Position numbers and translations under genes: made by a program. The notes under the pieces are model-generated. The model was not told the DNA's origin. It did no database searches and saw nothing but the letters and a program-made list of their open reading frames with translations. Of a DNA stretch of 64,000 bases, positions 38,890-56,422 are shown piece after piece; position 1 is the first letter of the stretch, and each line of letters opens with the position of its first letter. Location: assembly GCF_023573145.1 (NCBI RefSeq), contig NZ_CP097635.1, positions 2,976,001 through 3,040,000 on the forward strand, written 5' to 3'. Source of the DNA: Aquincola tertiaricarbonis (GTDB lineage: Bacteria; Pseudomonadota; Gammaproteobacteria; Burkholderiales; Burkholderiaceae_C).

Positions 38890-38976
38890 CCAGCTGCACA
38901 GGCACGACCACTGTCAAGCTGGCGCTACAGCGGCCGATATCCGCAGCTGTTGCGTCTTGTCTTGAAGTGGTCGTCC

Positions 38977-40494
38977 ATGAAACTCCGTACCCGAATCCTC
39001 TGGCTTTGTGCCGCAGCCCTTTGCGGCGCGCTGGCGCTGATCGGGCTCTCGCTCCATGGGCTCCGCCAGACCATGCTGGAAGAGCGCACCGCCCAGGTGG
39101 ACAACATGGTGGTGCTGGCGCTGGCCGCGGTGGACAAGCTGCATGAGCAGGAAAAGGCCGGCAAGCTCACCCGCGAGGCCGCCCAGGCCCAGGCCGTGGC
39201 CGTGCTGAGCAGCCTGCGCAAGGATGAGCGCTACTACTTCGTCCGTGGCTACACCAACGACATCAACTACGTCCACCCCAACCCCAAGCGCATCGGCATC
39301 GTCGACCCCAAGGGCGGCAAGGAAGCCGGTGAACGCTACCGCGCCGCGCTGCAGGGCAAGGCCATCGGCAACGTGGTGGCCCCCGGCACCCGCCCCGGCC
39401 TGCAGGAGAAGGTGGACAAGCTGTATGCCGTGGCGCACTTCCAGCCCTGGGACTGGATCATCGGCACCGGCGACTACATCGACGACATCGACACCGCCTT
39501 CTGGCGCGCCGCCGCGATGATGATGGGCGTGGGCGGCACGCTGATGGCCGTGGTGGGCGTGATGGGCTGGACCATGTCGCGCCGCATCTACCGCGACCTG
39601 GGCGGCGAGCCCGACTACGCCGCGCAGATCGTGCGCCGCATCGGCGCCGGCGACCTCTCGGTGCAGGTGCAGCTGCGGCCCGGCGACAGCAACAGCCTGC
39701 TGGCCGCGATGCACCAGATGCAGCAGGGTCTGGCCGGCACGGTGGGCAGCATCCGCCTGGCGACCGACCACATCGCCACCGCCTCCGGCGAGATCGCCGC
39801 CGGCAACCTCGACCTGTCGGCCCGCACCGAATCCCAGGCCAGCGCGCTGCAGCAGACCGCCGCGTCGATGGAAGAGATCACCGCCACCGTCAAGCAGAAC
39901 GCCGAGAACGCCCGCCAGGCCAACGAGCTGGCCGTGGCCGCCTCGCAGGTGGCCGCCCGCGGTGGCGCGGTGGTGGGTGAAGTGGTGCAGACCATGAGCG
40001 CCATCAGCGACAGCTCGCGCAAGATCGCCGACATCATTGGCACCATCGACGGCATCGCCTTCCAGACCAACATCCTGGCGCTGAACGCGGCGGTGGAAGC
40101 CGCGCGCGCCGGCGAACAAGGCCGCGGCTTTGCGGTGGTGGCGGGCGAGGTGCGCACGCTGGCCCAGCGCAGCGCCGAGGCGGCCAAGGAAATCAAGTCG
40201 CTGATTGGCAGCTCGGTGGACATGGTGGAAGCCGGCACCCGCCTGGTGGGCCAGGCCGGTGCCACCATCCAGGAAGTGGTGGGCAGCGTGGAACGCGTGA
40301 CCACCGTGGTGGCCGAGATCACCACCGCCTCGCAGGAACAGACCTCCGGCATCGAGCAGGTGAACCAGGCCATCGCCCAGATGGACCAGGCCACCCAGCA
40401 GAACGCCGCGCTGGTGGAGCAGGCCTCGGCCGCCGCCATGTCGCTCAAGGAGCAGTCGCGTACGCTGGTGGAAACCGTCGCCTCCTTCCGCTGA
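38977..40494 (+). CDS. Methyl-accepting chemotaxis protein with Cache-type sensor
   Basis: A 505-aa transmembrane chemoreceptor: TM1 at about 5-22, a periplasmic single-Cache domain ([38 protein letters not shown]), TM2 ([20 protein letters not shown]), a short HAMP and the cytoplasmic signalling domain with the hairpin tip [20 protein letters not shown]. It has no terminal CheR-docking pentapeptide. Single-Cache receptors often sense short organic acids. Start at 38977 gives a proper TM1. A tandem repeat element begins exactly at its stop codon. Confidence 0.93.
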
Positions 40495-40645
40495 TGTTGG
40501 CCCCCAGGCTCGCTGCGCTCGCCACCCCCCGGGGGGGCTCTCAGCCCCTTGGGGCGGCCCGGCGGGGCTGATGTCTGCCCCCAAGCTCGCTGCGCTCGCC
40601 ACCCCCCGGGGGGGCTCTCAGCCCTTTGGGGCGGCCCGGCGGGGC
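40492..40645. repeat. Tandem pair of 77-bp interspersed repeats
   Basis: Two near-identical 77-bp units (40492-40568 and 40569-40645) start TGATGT and carry GCCCCCAAGCTCGCTGCGCT or a one-base variant, then CCACCCCCCGGGGGGG and TTGGGGCGGCCCGGCGGGGC. The outer arms are complementary, so each unit can fold into a long hairpin. The first unit begins on the stop codon of the chemoreceptor gene. Possibly REP-like, with a terminator role. Confidence 0.9.
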
Positions 40646-40710: not shown

Positions 40711-41406
40711 ATGTCTGCTGGCGCGATGGCGCGCGCCCCCCGGCGCGCGGAGATCACCGGGGCTGCTCTGGTGCGGCTGCTGGCGCGGCTGACCGAGGCC
40801 GACGTGCCCGAGTCACGCCTGCAGTTTGCCCAGCGCCTGGCCCACTGGCTGGGCTGGGCCGATGCCATTTCCCTCTACGGCGCCCTGGGCCCCGTGGGCA
40901 GCGCGCCTGCGCCTGAGAGCACCGGCAGCCGGCCCGCGCCGGCCGCAGCGCCCGCCGCCGACCCCCACGCCGACGCCGACCAGGTGCGCCAGCAGCTGGC
41001 CCGCCAGCTGACCGAGCCAGCCCTGGAAGCGCGTGAAGCCCAGGACGCCGAAGGTTTTGCGCCCTGGCGCCGCCACTGCAACCAGCGCCAGAACGCCATG
41101 GAACGCGCCATCGCGCCGCTGCGCGAGCGCCTGCGCCAGCAGCTGGCCGCCTGCTCCCCCGCGATGGCGCGGCTGGCCGAGGTGGACGCGGTGATGGAAC
41201 AGGTGCTGGCGCCGCAGGAGCAGCGGCTGCTGGCCACCGTGCCCGGCTGGCTGGGCAAGCACTTCGAGCGCCTGCGCCGCAGCAGCCAGCCCGGCTTCGA
41301 GCAGGACCTGCAAGCGGTGCTGCTGGCCGAACTCGAGATCCGATTCCAACCGGTGGAGGGGCTGCTCGAAGCCCTGGCCACCGCGCAGCGACAAGCAAGC
41401 ACATGA
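40711..41406 (+). CDS. DUF3348-family protein, first gene of putative motor operon
   Basis: A 231-aa soluble protein of the DUF3348 family (EITGAALVRLLARLTEADVP; RLQFAQRLAHWLGWADAISL), helical throughout, with an Ala/Pro-rich linker at about 60-90. Function unknown; no catalytic motif visible. The N-terminus is basic. Its TGA overlaps the ATG of the DUF802 gene (ATGA), so the products are probably made together. No strong ribosome-binding site precedes the ATG at 40711. Confidence 0.85.
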   Translation: MSAGAMARAPRRAEITGAALVRLLARLTEADVPESRLQFAQRLAHWLGWADAISLYGALGPVGSAPAPESTGSRPAPAAAPAADPHADADQVRQQLARQLTEPALEAREAQDAEGFAPWRRHCNQRQNAMERAIAPLRERLRQQLAACSPAMARLAEVDAVMEQVLAPQEQRLLATVPGWLGKHFERLRRSSQPGFEQDLQAVLLAELEIRFQPVEGLLEALATAQRQAST

Positions 41407-43538
41407 ACCGACACCTCCAACACGCCGTGTTCGCGGCCGGCCTGGGCGCCATCGCCTGGGTGGCCGTGGGCTATGCCGGCCGCAGCCCGCTGGCGCTGGT
41501 GATGATGGCGCTGATCGCCGCCACCTACCTGGCCGGCGCGCTGGAACTGCGCCGCCACCGCGCCGCCACCGACGCGCTGCAGGCCGCGCTGGCCGACCTG
41601 GCACAACCCCAGCAGGAGCTGGCCCCCTGGCTGCAGCGCCTGCCCGCCGCCCTGCGGCAGCCGGTGCGGCTGCGCATCGAGGGTGAGCGCAGCGCCCTGC
41701 CCGGCCCCGCGCTGACGCCCTACCTGACCGGCCTGCTGGTGCTGCTGGGCATGCTGGGCACCTTCCTGGGCATGGTGGTCACGCTCAACGGCACCGGCCT
41801 GGCGCTGGACAGCGCCACCGACCTGGCCTCGATCCGCGCTTCGCTGTCGGCGCCGGTCAAGGGCCTGGGCCTGGCCTTCGGCACCTCGGTGGCCGGCATC
41901 GCCGCTTCGGCCATGCTGGGGCTGCTGTCGGCCCTGCTGCGGCGCCAGCGCCAGCAGGTGGTGCAGCAGCTGGACGGCCACATCGCCGGCCCGTTGCGCG
42001 TGTTCTCGCAGGCGCACCGCCGCGACGAACAGCTGCGCCTGCTGCAGCAGCAGGCCGAGACGCTGCCGGTGCTGGTGGACCGGCTGCAGGCCCTGATGGG
42101 CGGCATTGAGCGCCAGGGGGAGCTGCTGGGCAGCCGGCTGGCCGATGAGCAGGCCCGCTTCCATGAGCAGGCCGGCCAGGCCTACACCCAGCTGGCCGCC
42201 TCGGTCGGCCGCTCGCTGGAGCACAGCCTGGCGGCCAGCGCCCGCGCCGCCGGCGCCACGCTGCAGCCGGTGGTGGAAGCCACCATGGCCGGCATCGCCC
42301 GCGAGACGCAGGCCTTGCAGGCCACGCTGGCCGGCGGCCTGGACCGACAGCTGCAGGCCCTGACCGATCGCGTGGAAACCGCCCACACCCGCGTGGCCGA
42401 CCACTGGCAGCAAGCGCTCGCCGACCACCAGGCGCAGCAGGCCGGCCAGGCGCAGCACTGGCAGGCGCGGCTGGACGCGCTGGCCGAGCGGCTGGAACAA
42501 CGCTCCAGCGCGATGGTGGACGCCGTGGCCCAGCGGCTGGACCACACCGCCGACGCCGTGGCCACCCGCTGGCAGGCCCTGGCCGCCGAGCAGCACCGGC
42601 TGCAGCAGGCCACGGTGGCCGAGCAGCAGCGCGCCCAGCAAGCCAGCGCCGCCGAACAGCTGCGCTTGCACCAGGCCAGCGCAGCCGAGCTGCAGGCCCT
42701 GCAGCGCAGCACCGCCGAGACGCTGCAGCGCCAGCAGCAGCAGGCCACCACCGCGCTGCAGCAGGCGATGGACGCCGCCGCCAGCGGCTTTGCCCAGCAG
42801 GCCGCGGCGCTGCTGCAATCGGTGGAGCGGGTGCATGCCGGCCTGCAGAGCAGCCTGGCCGAGGCCGATGCCCAGCGCCTGGCGGCCTGGACGGGCCGGT
42901 TGAACGGCATGGCCCACTCGCTGCAGCAGGCCTTCGAGCAGACCGGCCAGCGCACGCTGGCCGAGATCGGCACGGTGCTGCAGGCAGCCGCCGATGCGCC
43001 GCGCGCCGCGGCCGAGGTGATCAACGAACTGCGCGACAAGCTCAGCGACAGCATGGCCCGCGACCAGGCGATGCTGGCTGAACGCGAGCGCATGCTGCAG
43101 ACCCTGGGCACGCTGCTGGACACGGTGCAGCACGCCAGCCAGGGCCAGCGCCAGGCCATCGACACGCTGGTGGCCTCGTCCGCCGAGCTGCTGGACGGCC
43201 TGGGCCAGCGCCTGGCCGCCAGCACCGAGGCGCACGAAGGCCGCATGGCCGAGGTGGCCGCGCAGCTCACCGGCAGCGCGGTGGAAGTGGCCAGCCTGGG
43301 CGAAGCCTTCGGCACCGCGGTGCAGCAGTTCAGCCAGACCAGCGAGCAGCTGGCCGCGCAGCTGCAGCGCATCGAAACCGCGCTGAGCCAGTCGCTGACG
43401 CGCAGCGACGAGCAGCTGGCCTATTACGTGGCGCAGGCGCGTGAGGTCATCGACCTCAGCATCAGCTCGCAGCAGCAGATCGTCGAAGACCTGCAGCAGC
43501 TGGGCCGCCAGCGCGCGCTGGCCGGCAGCGACGCATGA
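41403..43538 (+). CDS. DUF802 protein; MotA/ZorA-like stator with long coiled-coil tail
   Basis: A 711-aa protein. Two hydrophobic helices lie near residues 8-25 and 29-47. A MotA/TolQ/ExbB-like pair follows: helix 3 at about 107-128 (LTGLLVLLGMLGTFLGMVVT) and helix 4 at about 153-178 (GLGLAFGTSVAGIAASAML then GLLSALL). Residues about 180-700 are almost continuous Gln/Ala/Glu-rich coiled coil. This is the layout of ZorA, an ion-driven stator with an intracellular tail. The partner gene downstream has the matching MotB/ZorB layout. Function not known; the motor role is inference from architecture. It is coupled to both neighbours by ATGA overlaps. Confidence 0.85.
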   Translation: MNRHLQHAVFAAGLGAIAWVAVGYAGRSPLALVMMALIAATYLAGALELRRHRAATDALQAALADLAQPQQELAPWLQRLPAALRQPVRLRIEGERSALPGPALTPYLTGLLVLLGMLGTFLGMVVTLNGTGLALDSATDLASIRASLSAPVKGLGLAFGTSVAGIAASAMLGLLSALLRRQRQQVVQQLDGHIAGPLRVFSQAHRRDEQLRLLQQQAETLPVLVDRLQALMGGIERQGELLGSRLADEQARFHEQAGQAYTQLAASVGRSLEHSLAASARAAGATLQPVVEATMAGIARETQALQATLAGGLDRQLQALTDRVETAHTRVADHWQQALADHQAQQAGQAQHWQARLDALAERLEQRSSAMVDAVAQRLDHTADAVATRWQALAAEQHRLQQATVAEQQRAQQASAAEQLRLHQASAAELQALQRSTAETLQRQQQQATTALQQAMDAAASGFAQQAAALLQSVERVHAGLQSSLAEADAQRLAAWTGRLNGMAHSLQQAFEQTGQRTLAEIGTVLQAAADAPRAAAEVINELRDKLSDSMARDQAMLAERERMLQTLGTLLDTVQHASQGQRQAIDTLVASSAELLDGLGQRLAASTEAHEGRMAEVAAQLTGSAVEVASLGEAFGTAVQQFSQTSEQLAAQLQRIETALSQSLTRSDEQLAYYVAQAREVIDLSISSQQQIVEDLQQLGRQRALAGSDA

Positions 43539-44260
43539 GCCTGGCCTGGGACACCCCCGAAGACGGCGTTGAGGAGGCGGGCACGCCGGTGTGGGCCGCC
43601 TTCGGCGACCTGATGGCCGGGCTGCTGGGCGCCTTCGTGCTGATCCTGGTCTACGTGGTGGGCCAGCAGCTGGACCTGAGCCACCGGCTGCAGGCCGAGG
43701 TGGCACAGCGCCAGGCCGAGACTCAGCGCCGGCAGTCGCTGGAACAGGTGCTGGCCGGGCCGCTGGCGGCCGGCCGCGTCTCGCTGGTGGATGGCCGCAT
43801 CGGCATCAGCGGCAGCCTGCTGTTCGAGTTCAACTCGGCCGACCTGCAGCCCGAGGGCCGGCGCCTGCTGCGCAGCCTGGCCAGGCCCCTGGCCGCCTAC
43901 CTGCGTGAGCGCGACGAGATGCTGATGGTCAGCGGCTTCACCGACGACCGCGGGGTGCGCGAGCGCAGCAAGCATTTCGAGGACAACTGGGAGCTGTCGG
44001 CCCAGCGCGCCCTCACCGTGACCCGCGCGCTGATCGAAGAAGGCCTGCCGGCCCCGTACGTGTTCGCGGCGGCCTTCGGCGCGCAGCAGGCTGTGGCCAG
44101 CAACGCCGATGCCGAGGGCCGGGCCAAGAACCGCCGGGTGGAGATGTCGCCGATGCAGCGGCCGGCCCGGGGCCCCGCACGCGCAGCCTCCGCCCCCACC
44201 CTCGCCCCCGCTGCCGCGGCCAGCACCGCTGCCCCGGCGCCCGCCCCCCGCCGTGACTGA
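43535..44260 (+). CDS. OmpA-domain protein, MotB/ZorB-like
   Basis: A 241-aa protein with one N-terminal helix (GDLMAGLLGAFVLILVYVVG, about 24-43), preceded by a cytoplasmic tail. Asp25 at the helix start is placed like the proton-binding aspartate of MotB/ZorB. The periplasmic part is an OmpA-like peptidoglycan-binding domain: LLFEFNSADLQPEGRRLL, SGFTDD, NWELSAQRALTVTRALIEEG, NADAEGRAKNRRVEM. Its length and layout fit the B subunit of a 5:2 rotary motor with the DUF802 protein. The C-terminus is a Pro/Ala-rich tail. It overlaps both neighbouring genes. Confidence 0.9.
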   Translation: MSLAWDTPEDGVEEAGTPVWAAFGDLMAGLLGAFVLILVYVVGQQLDLSHRLQAEVAQRQAETQRRQSLEQVLAGPLAAGRVSLVDGRIGISGSLLFEFNSADLQPEGRRLLRSLARPLAAYLRERDEMLMVSGFTDDRGVRERSKHFEDNWELSAQRALTVTRALIEEGLPAPYVFAAAFGAQQAVASNADAEGRAKNRRVEMSPMQRPARGPARAASAPTLAPAAAASTAAPAPAPRRD

Positions 44261-44837
44261 GCTCTTGCAGCCGCCCCCGCTGGCCGACTGGCTGGCCGAG
44301 CGCCGCGCCCAGGGCGCGCAGCAGCGCGACCCGATGCGCTTCCGCTTCATCGAGGCCATGGCCCGGCGCGCGGCCGGGCATCGCGGCTTGGCGGCCGAGC
44401 GCCTGGCGCAGCGGCTGCAGCAGCTGGCTGCGGCCTACGATGGTGCCGCCGCGGCGGCACCGCAGCCCGCTTCGGCGGCCCCGGCCGCAGCGCGCCCACC
44501 CGGCCCGCTGGCCGCCCTGGTGGCGGAACTGGCGCAGCAATCGCCGCCCGAGACCGAGCTGAAGACGCTGCGCGACTTCCGCAGCACCTGGTCGCGGCTG
44601 AGCGCCGAGCGCCGGCTCACCCAGTCGCTGGCGGTGGTGCCCGACAACGCGGGGCCGCTAAACTCGCAGCAGCTGGTGCACCGCGCCCTGCGGCTGATGC
44701 GTGAGCTGTCGCCCGGCTACCTCGACCGCTTCGTGCAGCACGTGGACGCGCTGCTGTGGCTGGACCAGCTCAATGCCGCCGGTGCCGCGCCCCGCAAGAC
44801 CAGTGCCGCCGACCGCCGCCGCAGCAGCAGCCCTTAG
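44253..44837 (+). CDS. DUF2894-family protein, last gene of putative motor operon
   Basis: A 194-aa soluble, basic, helical protein of the DUF2894 family (DPMRFRFIEAMARRAAGHRG; LKTLRDFRSTWSRLSAERRL; LRLMRELSPGYLDRFVQHVD). Function unknown. The GTG start at 44253 overlaps the OmpA-gene stop by 8 bases. In this operon it could be an effector or an assembly factor. The central Ala/Pro-rich stretch is a flexible linker. Confidence 0.85.
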   Translation: MTELLQPPPLADWLAERRAQGAQQRDPMRFRFIEAMARRAAGHRGLAAERLAQRLQQLAAAYDGAAAAAPQPASAAPAAARPPGPLAALVAELAQQSPPETELKTLRDFRSTWSRLSAERRLTQSLAVVPDNAGPLNSQQLVHRALRLMRELSPGYLDRFVQHVDALLWLDQLNAAGAAPRKTSAADRRRSSSP

Positions 44838-44851
44838 CGCGCCGCCCAGAT

Positions 44852-45913
44852 ATGATGGACATCAGCCCTACTGATGTCTTGATGGTCGACCTACCGCGCC
44901 CTGGCCCCACGCTGCGCTTCATCCGTTGGACGGCGCGCTTCAGAACCCGGCCCCGCCTGGCCTACCCCGTGGCGGTGATCGCCTTCCTGCTGGCCCTGGG
45001 GGCCCGCTTCCTAGCCGATCCGCTGCTGGGCAACGGCTTCCCGTTCCTCACGTTCTTCCCAGCCATCCTGCTCAGCGCCTTCGTGTGCGGCCGCGGGCCG
45101 GGCACGCTCTGTGCGCTGCTGTCCATCGGGGCGGCGTGGTACTGGTTCATCCTGCCGCGGGAGAGCTTCGCGCTCGATGGCACTGCGGCCCTGGCCATCG
45201 CCTTCTTCGTGCTGATCAGCGTGGTCGACATCGTGGTGATCGACCTGCTGTCGCAGGTGACGAGCCAGCTCGAGAAGAGCCAGGAGCGTTCGCAGGCGCT
45301 GTTGGCACAACGCACCACGCTGTTCCAGGAGCTGCAGCACCGGGTGGCCAACAACCTGACGCTGGTGGGCAGCGTGCTGGCGGTGCAGGCCCGCCAGCTG
45401 CGCCACAACCCCGAGGCCACCGCTGCGCTGAACGAGGCGCGGCGCCGCTTCGACCTGTTCTCGCGCATCCACCGCCGGCTGCACGACCCGGCCGCGGCCG
45501 ACCAGCCGCTGGCCGAGCGCCTGCGCGAGATGTGCGACGACATTCTGAAGGCGGCCGAGGCCGGGCAGGTGCGCTGCGAGGTGCATGCGGCCGACCTGGT
45601 GTTCGACATCGACCGCACGACGGTGCTGTCGATGATCGTGCTGGAGGTCATCAGCAATGCGCTCAAGCATGCCTTCGAGCCGGGCGAAGCTGGCCACATC
45701 GTGGTGAACCTGCAGCCGCTGGACGCCCGGCAGCTGGAGCTGGCCATCACCGACGACGGCCGCGGCATGCCCGAGGGCTACGACAGCAGCCGCAGCGAGC
45801 GGCTGGGCATGAAGATCCTGTCGGGCTTCGCCTCGTCGCTGCGCGGCACGGTGGAACTGCGGCCGGGGCCGCGCGGCACTGGCACGTGCGTGCGCGTCGT
45901 ATTCCCCGCCTGA
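44852..45913 (+). CDS. Sensor histidine kinase, HisKA_2 type with DUF4118-like membrane domain
   Basis: A roughly 353-aa membrane kinase. Three to four helices (AYPVAVIAFLLALGARFLAD; FLTFFPAILLSAFVCGRGPG; GTAALAIAFFVLISVVDIVV) form a DUF4118-type region, followed by a HisKA_2 box with phospho-acceptor His in ELQHRVANNLTLVGS and HATPase motifs (LEVISNALKHAFEPGE; ITDDGRGMP; LGMKILSGFASSL). The start is uncertain: ATG 44852 overlaps a TATGAT that could be a promoter -10 element, and ATG 44882 is an alternative. Tandem repeats start at its stop codon. No cognate regulator adjacent. Confidence 0.88.
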   Translation: MMDISPTDVLMVDLPRPGPTLRFIRWTARFRTRPRLAYPVAVIAFLLALGARFLADPLLGNGFPFLTFFPAILLSAFVCGRGPGTLCALLSIGAAWYWFILPRESFALDGTAALAIAFFVLISVVDIVVIDLLSQVTSQLEKSQERSQALLAQRTTLFQELQHRVANNLTLVGSVLAVQARQLRHNPEATAALNEARRRFDLFSRIHRRLHDPAAADQPLAERLREMCDDILKAAEAGQVRCEVHAADLVFDIDRTTVLSMIVLEVISNALKHAFEPGEAGHIVVNLQPLDARQLELAITDDGRGMPEGYDSSRSERLGMKILSGFASSLRGTVELRPGPRGTGTCVRVVFPA

Positions 45914-46076
45914 TGGAGCCCCCAAGGCCCGGGCTTCGCCCGGACCGCCCCCCCGAGGGGGAGCCACGAAGCTTGGGGCGGCCCGGCGCTTCGTGATGGA
46001 GCCCCCAAGGCCCGGGCTTCGCCCGGACCGCCCCCCCGAGGGGGAGCCACGAAGCTTGGGGCGGCCCGGCGCTTCG
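45911..46076. repeat. Tandem pair of identical 83-bp repeats
   Basis: Two exact 83-bp units, 45911-45993 and 45994-46076, each TGATGGAGCCCCCAAGGCCC through CGGCCCGGCGCTTCG. They share the outer arms (GCCCCCAAG, CTTGGGGCGGCCCGGCG) of the 77-bp family but have a different inner stem (CCGGGCTTCGCCCGG). The first unit starts on the histidine kinase stop codon; the second ends 10 bases before the convergent MarR gene. Confidence 0.93.
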
Positions 46077-56270: not shown

Positions 56271-56422
56271 GGATGTCGGCCCCCAAGCTCGCTGCGCTCG
56301 CTACCCCCCGTGGGGGCTCTCCGCGCCTTGGGGCGGCCCGGCGGCGGGATGTAGGCCCCCAAGCTCGCTGCGCTCGCTACCCCCCGTGGGGGCTCTCCGC
56401 GCCTTGGGGCGGCCCGGCGGCG
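56271..56422. repeat. Tandem pair of 76-bp interspersed repeats
   Basis: Two near-identical units (56271-56346 and 56347-56422), each GGATGT(C/A)GGCCCCCAAGCTC through CGCGCCTTGGGGCGGCCCGG. They share the outer arms and most of the core with the 40492-40645 pair. They start four bases after the LysR stop codon and end 89 bases before phoD. Confidence 0.9.

Follow-up and report, generated by a model that had tools for sequence, protein, structure and literature searches.

The 64,000-nucleotide stretch of Aquincola tertiaricarbonis DNA analyzed here (the window; contig NZ_CP097635.1, positions 2,976,001 to 3,040,000 of the forward strand) carries at 40711-44837 a four-gene operon that, judged from its genes alone, is a Zorya type III anti-phage system. 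As a find the operon is ordinary, the type having already been named; its value lies in the clues that it offers to the type III mechanism. Comparison of its relatives suggests that the shaft within the long cytoplasmic tail of the motor protein ZorA changes length in whole helical turns. The mechanism of Zorya III looks unsolved, and whole-turn changes of this kind make it easier to test.

The operon and its motor

The four genes and the three parts of ZorA are as follows.

40711-41406, plus strand: DUF3348 gene, 231 residues; Pfam DUF3348, 8.6e-60; PADLOC ZorG3, 1.7e-71.
41403-43538, plus strand: zorA3, 711 residues; MotA/TolQ-like motor subunit with a long cytoplasmic tail; PADLOC ZorA3, 1.1e-265.
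43535-44260, plus strand: zorB3, 241 residues; one membrane helix and an OmpA/MotB peptidoglycan-binding domain; PADLOC ZorB3, 3.9e-105.
44253-44837, plus strand: DUF2894 gene, 194 residues from a GTG start; Pfam, 3e-49; PADLOC ZorF3, 6e-63.
41403-42362, plus strand: ZorA residues 1-320; conserved motor and neck, including the four membrane segments (hydropathy and identity over 95 loci).
42363-42842, plus strand: ZorA residues 321-480; variable shaft, with most of DUF802 and with 33-bp repeats at 42582-42695.
42843-43535, plus strand: ZorA residues 481-711; conserved acidic tip of the tail (identity over 95 loci and charge).

All four proteins matched the PADLOC models for Zorya type III at E values of 6e-63 or better, and the type I and type II models for ZorA and ZorB scored far below the type III ones. 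Models for ZorC, ZorD and ZorE, the components that mark types I and II, gave no match to the four proteins at an E value of 1 or below in PADLOC. The operon has the features by which type III is recognized: zorA and zorB are flanked by the DUF3348 and DUF2894 genes, ZorA joins a MotA/TolQ-like membrane part to a long cytoplasmic tail, and ZorB carries an Asp in its membrane helix and a peptidoglycan-binding OmpA domain. Type III was established in 2021 on the basis of 6,401 loci; in Escherichia coli, phage plaquing was reduced by a copy taken from Stenotrophomonas nitritireducens, and the same paper suggested that ZorAB is regulated by the two additional proteins (Payne 2021, PMC8565338). The partner names are swapped between sources, DUF3348 being ZorF and DUF2894 ZorG in that text and ZorG3 and ZorF3, respectively, in PADLOC-DB 2.0.0. 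A sequence-only reading of the window had proposed a ZorAB-like ion-driven motor, possibly for defense; the type III matches of all four proteins support that proposal, which had missed that the operon belongs to a named type with published plaque reduction.

The same reading had described a coupled operon with every junction overlapping, and this was verified. The four open reading frames (ORFs) lie on the plus strand at the positions it gave, with overlaps of ATGA at 41403-41406, ATGA at 43535-43538 and 8 bases at 44253-44260. An alternative ATG start for the DUF2894 gene, at 44109, is also open and would give a longer product; the junction of zorB with the DUF2894 gene is likewise an 8-base overlap, by longest ORFs, in the relatives L055, L064 and L069.

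Hydropathy placed four membrane regions in ZorA (about 8-26, 29-47, 108-126 and 161-179) and one in ZorB (24-42), with Asp25 (GAC, 43607-43609) at its start. Pfam recognized DUF802 in ZorA (2.3e-8, residues 320-371) and OmpA in ZorB (2.7e-19). A ZorA3 profile built from 50 N-terminal parts had a single match in the PDB at an E value of 0.01 or below, to ZorA of the Shewanella type I complex 8vvn (5.7e-7), with an alignment spanning membrane segments 3 and 4. The ZorB3 profile matched ZorB of 8vvn (1.9e-8) over positions 9-204, a span that covers both the membrane helix and the OmpA domain. It also matched a chain of 8qyd (2.6e-7, positions 9-202); many OmpA domains in the PDB scored above these Zorya matches. 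We take 8qyd to be a type I complex and the matched chain to be its ZorB. Asp25 was invariant in 24 of 24 ZorB3 proteins, and T120 and S162 of ZorA in 50 of 50 sequences. The four membrane helices that had been claimed for the DUF802 protein, the last two in MotA/TolQ style, and the MotB/ZorB-like helix beginning at Asp25 claimed for the OmpA protein agree with hydropathy, Pfam and both profile matches, and the profile half of the refutation test set by the sequence-only reading came out in its favor.

Among 149 relatives (the window's own genome included), DUF2894, DUF3348 over its cut-off and ZorB3 at an E value of 1.9e-91 or below were each found in 24, and these were the identical 24 genomes, all within the window's family. 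The four genes travel together. Matches to ZorB3 in 22 further genomes were at 5.9e-26 or weaker and lay mainly in the OmpA part; a 25th genome, G098, gave a DUF3348 match of 23.6 bits, below the cut-off, and BLAST found none of the four genes in that region. In a class sample of 369 genomes DUF2894 occurred in 8, with ZorB3 adjoining it in all 7 loci other than the window. The DUF2894 family search also exceeded its cut-off in a control genome outside the usual taxa, Corynebacterium glutamicum. A scan of named genomes found at least 549 relatives, of which 80 were kept, among them members of Variovorax, Paraburkholderia, Burkholderia, Xanthomonas, Dyella and Luteimonas, so that 103 loci were compared (the window, 22 relatives and the 80 named genomes; the fragmented G058 was left out). 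The order DUF3348-zorA-zorB-DUF2894 on one strand was found in 96 of the 103, all four genes being present in each; judged from contig ranges, the other 7 end at a contig edge inside the block. The recurrence of this arrangement across so many loci puts the operon far beyond chance, and the neighborhood survey that had been suggested for the two DUF families placed both beside zorA and zorB.

Length and helical phase of the ZorA shaft

Across 95 loci, mean identity to the window was 0.47-0.77 per 40 residues in the motor and neck (residues 1-320) and 0.44-0.66 in the tip (481-711), and the part between residues 320 and 481 was less conserved than both ends. Shaft length was taken as the number of residues between the conserved anchors P289 and R544 and could be measured in 172 of 173 ZorA3 sequences (95 from the loci and 78 from a protein search, the window included, some possibly being the same protein). 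These gave 52 distinct lengths; the shortest shaft has 135 residues, the longest 634 and that of the window 256. A constant step of 11 residues along the entire shaft was tested and rejected: classes 0, 4 and 7 mod 11 held 84 of 93 sequences, but the distinct lengths of the larger set were spread mod 11, and a helical-turn period was therefore used. The main repeat unit in the window's own shaft is 33 bp, or 11 residues.

With the period chosen by scanning 3.4-3.75 residues per turn, the 52 distinct lengths, which are not fully independent events, were in phase at a turn of 3.635 residues (R 0.67). The same range was scanned in 2000 sets of random lengths, which gave a mean R of 0.25 and a maximum of 0.44. 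The peak lay at 3.635-3.645 for four anchor pairs and at 3.635 when the set was restricted to loci. Variable linkers in DUF2894 and DUF3348, taken as controls, showed no phase (R 0.06 and 0.18). Loci that occupy the same genomic site provided a closer comparison, in that shaft lengths were unequal in 53 of 86 same-site pairs; the difference was a multiple of 29 residues in 47 of these 53, among them 19 with a difference of exactly 87. The flank proteins of L118 and L123 are 97% identical; in these two loci a 261-bp tandem repeat is present in 5.0 and 4.1 copies, respectively. No variation in shaft length was seen within three Paraburkholderia caribensis or two Caballeronia records. Because length changes mostly by whole helical turns, the plain reading is that the tail would be a continuous, nearly straight helical shaft, a rod whose ends must keep their angular relation.

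Several of the shaft data tell against this reading or limit what it can carry. The remaining 6 of the 53 unequal pairs are off the multiples of 29 (22, 62, 69 and three of 219), and at 3.635 residues per turn the differences of 219 to 348 residues miss whole turns by as much as a quarter turn. The two linker controls cover short length ranges (28-71 and 23-76). In draft genomes, misassembled repeats could account for some of the differences in ZorA length. Moreover, insertions and deletions that preserve register are expected in any coiled coil, and the phase result therefore supports a continuous helix and not rotation.

The partner proteins and a proposed mechanism

Pfam, PADLOC, NCBIfam and structure searches found no nuclease, helicase or other enzyme family in DUF3348 or DUF2894, and no effector enzyme was recognized in the operon. 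An AlphaFold2 monomer of the DUF3348 protein was all-helical, with a confident bundle at about residues 85-230 (predicted local distance difference test [pLDDT], 85.6; predicted template modeling score [pTM], 0.78), and that of the DUF2894 protein had two helical parts of uncertain packing (pLDDT, 78.1). DUF2894 has five invariant columns, P130, G134, P135 and P154 in its C-terminal half and L89. The protein is basic (median isoelectric point, 10.6) with an Arg/Lys-rich C terminus: its last 19 residues reached a net charge of +3 or more in 93% of 96 sequences, compared with 16% of 981 flank ORFs. ZorA, in turn, has an acidic tip (median net charge, -15), which was at -8 or below in 98% of 96 sequences, compared with 11% of 700. 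In the passages of the open-licence literature retrieved for DUF3348, DUF2894, ZorF and ZorG, no tested role was found for either protein.

The best explanation, which we regard as fairly probable, is a Zorya III motor in which a rigid shaft would drive adaptors bound at its tip, and the DUF3348 and DUF2894 proteins would take the place that nuclease and helicase modules have in types I and II. The motor of those types is a 5:2 ZorA-ZorB complex with a grip on the peptidoglycan and a cytoplasmic extension that is needed for defense (PMC11890865). By homology, five ZorA subunits would surround two of ZorB in the present system; on disturbance of the envelope, ZorB would grip the peptidoglycan, ion flow would open and ZorA would turn. 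The tail may then carry torque or a rotational signal, as a rigid helical shaft, to the acidic tip. There the basic DUF2894 protein would dock, hold nucleic acid, or both, and the helical bundle of DUF3348 would act together with it. This proposal would refine, without proving, the idea of Payne 2021 that the two proteins regulate ZorAB.

Several points weigh against this explanation. Docking of DUF2894 on the tip is proposed from charge, and partial correlations between the partners and ZorA did not favor the tip (0.21-0.36, compared with 0.27-0.41 for the neck), the highest (0.51) being that of DUF3348 with the DUF2894 C-domain. Both partner models are monomers, the global fold of DUF2894 is uncertain (pTM, 0.41), and for neither family did the PDB offer a fold or related solved structure pointing to function. 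As for the motor, the single ZorA sequence of the window had no PDB match at an E value of 0.1 or below; Pfam MotA_ExbB (PF01618) gave 17.2 bits against a cut-off of 22.9 and reached an E value of 0.01 or below in only 2 of 50 ZorA3 members; and the four NCBIfam models for ZorA were all far under their cut-offs. When Burkholderia cenocepacia was infected by phage, change within a Zorya III operon was limited to its first one or two genes, and in the part of that report cited here Zorya III is missing from the authors' list of transcriptionally active systems (PMC12584637).

The basic tail of DUF2894 also admits a second account, in which the protein is itself a nucleic-acid-binding effector and the motor pulls or wraps DNA. 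The high isoelectric point fits such a role, as does a net positive charge in the last 19 residues of 96% of 96 proteins, compared with 51% of 981 flank ORFs. High G+C genomes favor Arg, however; a total charge of +8 was reached by 22% of 416 flank ORFs of similar size and by 73% of DUF2894 proteins, the tail may simply dock on the acidic tip of ZorA, and the searches with DUF2894 found no DNA-binding fold. We hold this account to be possible but tentative, and it overlaps the tip-adaptor explanation, which allows for docking as well as DNA binding.

We also considered, as a speculative extension, that type III might be a mechanistically distinct Zorya, an enzyme-free and mostly stand-alone motor in which a modular coiled-coil shaft keeps the angular phase between motor and tip and the acidic tip drives a basic adaptor on DNA. 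The modules of the shaft would be the 29-residue steps, often in 87-residue blocks, present as tandem repeats in the gene, and over evolution the shaft would grow or shrink by whole helical turns. If this were true, immunity could be tuned through the length and phase of the shaft.

Genomic setting and relation to known systems

Upstream of the operon lie a chemotaxis-receptor gene (38950-40494) and xanthine-dehydrogenase-type genes, and downstream a sensor-kinase gene within 44756-45913; neighbors were named from translations and domain tallies (25 of 54 and 25 of 99 families listed). Flank genes in the same position were common only to the same-genus locus L055, through two upstream genes (87% and 81% identical), and the operon itself was 52% (ZorA), 53% (DUF3348) and 47% (DUF2894) identical to that of L055. 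In L055 the longest ORF of the operon begins 71 bases after the dehydrogenase gene, where the window has the chemotaxis-receptor gene in between. Homologues of the downstream solute-receptor genes, 27-49% identical, occur near L055, L059, L064 and L073 in other positions or orientations and were read as paralogues.

By our own criterion, 53 of the 103 loci had no flank in common with any other locus, and the others formed 14 same-site groups of 2 to 10 loci. The block has therefore probably moved often and yet can stay put within a genus. Among 94 same-site pairs, 13 of them without Zor values at cut loci, mean identities were 87% for flanks, 91% for ZorB, 79% for DUF3348 and 70% for DUF2894; within ZorA they were 93% (residues 81-200), 84% (201-320), 76% (321-480) and 85.5% (481-711). 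The pair of the window and L055 was an outlier (flanks 84%, ZorB 74%, shaft 33%, DUF3348 54% and DUF2894 51%), a pattern consistent with two arrivals at a single spot or with replacement there.

A scan of neighbors covered 109 of the 196 ORFs nearest to the operons, without the loci that follow L131 and without some of the same-site duplicates. At an E value of 1e-10 or below, PADLOC matched among them only mad3, AriA, BrxL and mad8, one member each, and a piece of ZorA3. The Pfam families of these neighbors were mostly metabolic, transport and regulatory (25 of 99 listed). At five Zorya I loci, a small control from other taxa, 5 of the 10 nearest ORFs matched defense families, two of these matches (RmuC-like and mad2) being generic; a sixth neighbor matched PADLOC through an OmpA domain only and was not counted. 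The difference (5 of 10 compared with 4 of 109; Fisher P value = 1.5e-4) suggests that type III, in contrast to the small type I control, stands mostly away from other defense genes. This bears on tools that rely on islands to locate defense genes. For Zorya II, 10 of 369 genomes matched at 1e-20, and the two strong loci, L180 and L181, were analyzed. The type II set of L180 directly adjoins matches to Zorya I genes (ZorA, B, C and D), with a DrmD-like helicase on the other side, and the three neighbors scanned beside ZorE in L181 gave no match at an E value of 1e-30 or below.

These surroundings bear on whether the operon might be mainly a resident motor for envelope functions or DNA handling, its phage resistance being a side effect of overexpression. 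The scarcity of defense neighbors, the metabolic company and the same-site groups of up to 10 loci would suit such a motor, as would the mobile-element searches, in which the ZorB3 query had no match at 1e-10 in 50,697 phage records and 27 matches at 1e-40 in plasmid records, all on replicons of at least 366 kb. The lowered plaquing reported in the part of PMC8565338 cited above argues against it, however, as do the patchy presence among relatives (24 of 149), the 53 loci without a common flank and the divergence of DUF2894 beyond that of the flanks, which is expected under conflict. On balance we consider a resident motor unlikely. It is quite improbable that the DUF proteins uncouple the motor on infection, so that the cell is killed by an ion leak and depolarizes with no nucleic acid step. 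The lack of a recognized enzyme family in either partner and the ZorAB proton channel discussed in Payne 2021 (PMC8565338) would suit such a leak, but a long in-register shaft with a conserved acidic tip would be needless for it and DUF2894 is strongly basic.

Among 49 other ORFs of the window, the PADLOC families matched by a single member included PD-T4-6 (1.7e-55), mad6 (7.3e-43), C3a189 kinase, MkoA and PglW (25 of 34 families listed); these matches probably reflect a protein kinase and domains of a generic kind. Tandem pairs of intergenic repeats occur at 40490-40643, 45911-46076 and 56328-56419 with spacings of 77, 83 and 76 bases; the first two begin at the stop codon of the preceding gene, and an 18-base core of the second pair has 10 copies in the genome, compared with 0 for the reversed pattern.

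With flagellar MotAB, ExbBD and TolQR the operon shares the membrane core and the Asp-bearing helix, and with MotB the OmpA domain. It differs in the long coiled-coil tail of ZorA and in a MotA_ExbB score below cut-off. No MotA or MotB family model exceeded its curated cut-off (for ZorB, NCBIfam MotB models stayed under theirs among the 25 of 41 families listed, and PRK09040, a hypothetical protein, was over its own at 343.7 compared with 194), and Pfam found no flagellar gene within the operon. Zorya I and II (ZorAB with ZorCD or ZorE; 8vvn and 8vvi) have the same layout of ZorA and ZorB, the ion-binding Asp and the long tail, whereas the operon has no match to ZorC, ZorD or ZorE. The size of components is well conserved within types I and II, according to the sections of PMC11890865 cited here; five Zorya I ZorA proteins were 635-778 residues in total, compared with 135-634 for the type III shaft alone. 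No feature was found to distinguish the operon from Zorya III as modeled in PADLOC (ZorA3, B3, F3 and G3), with which it agrees in all four genes, their order and their domains.

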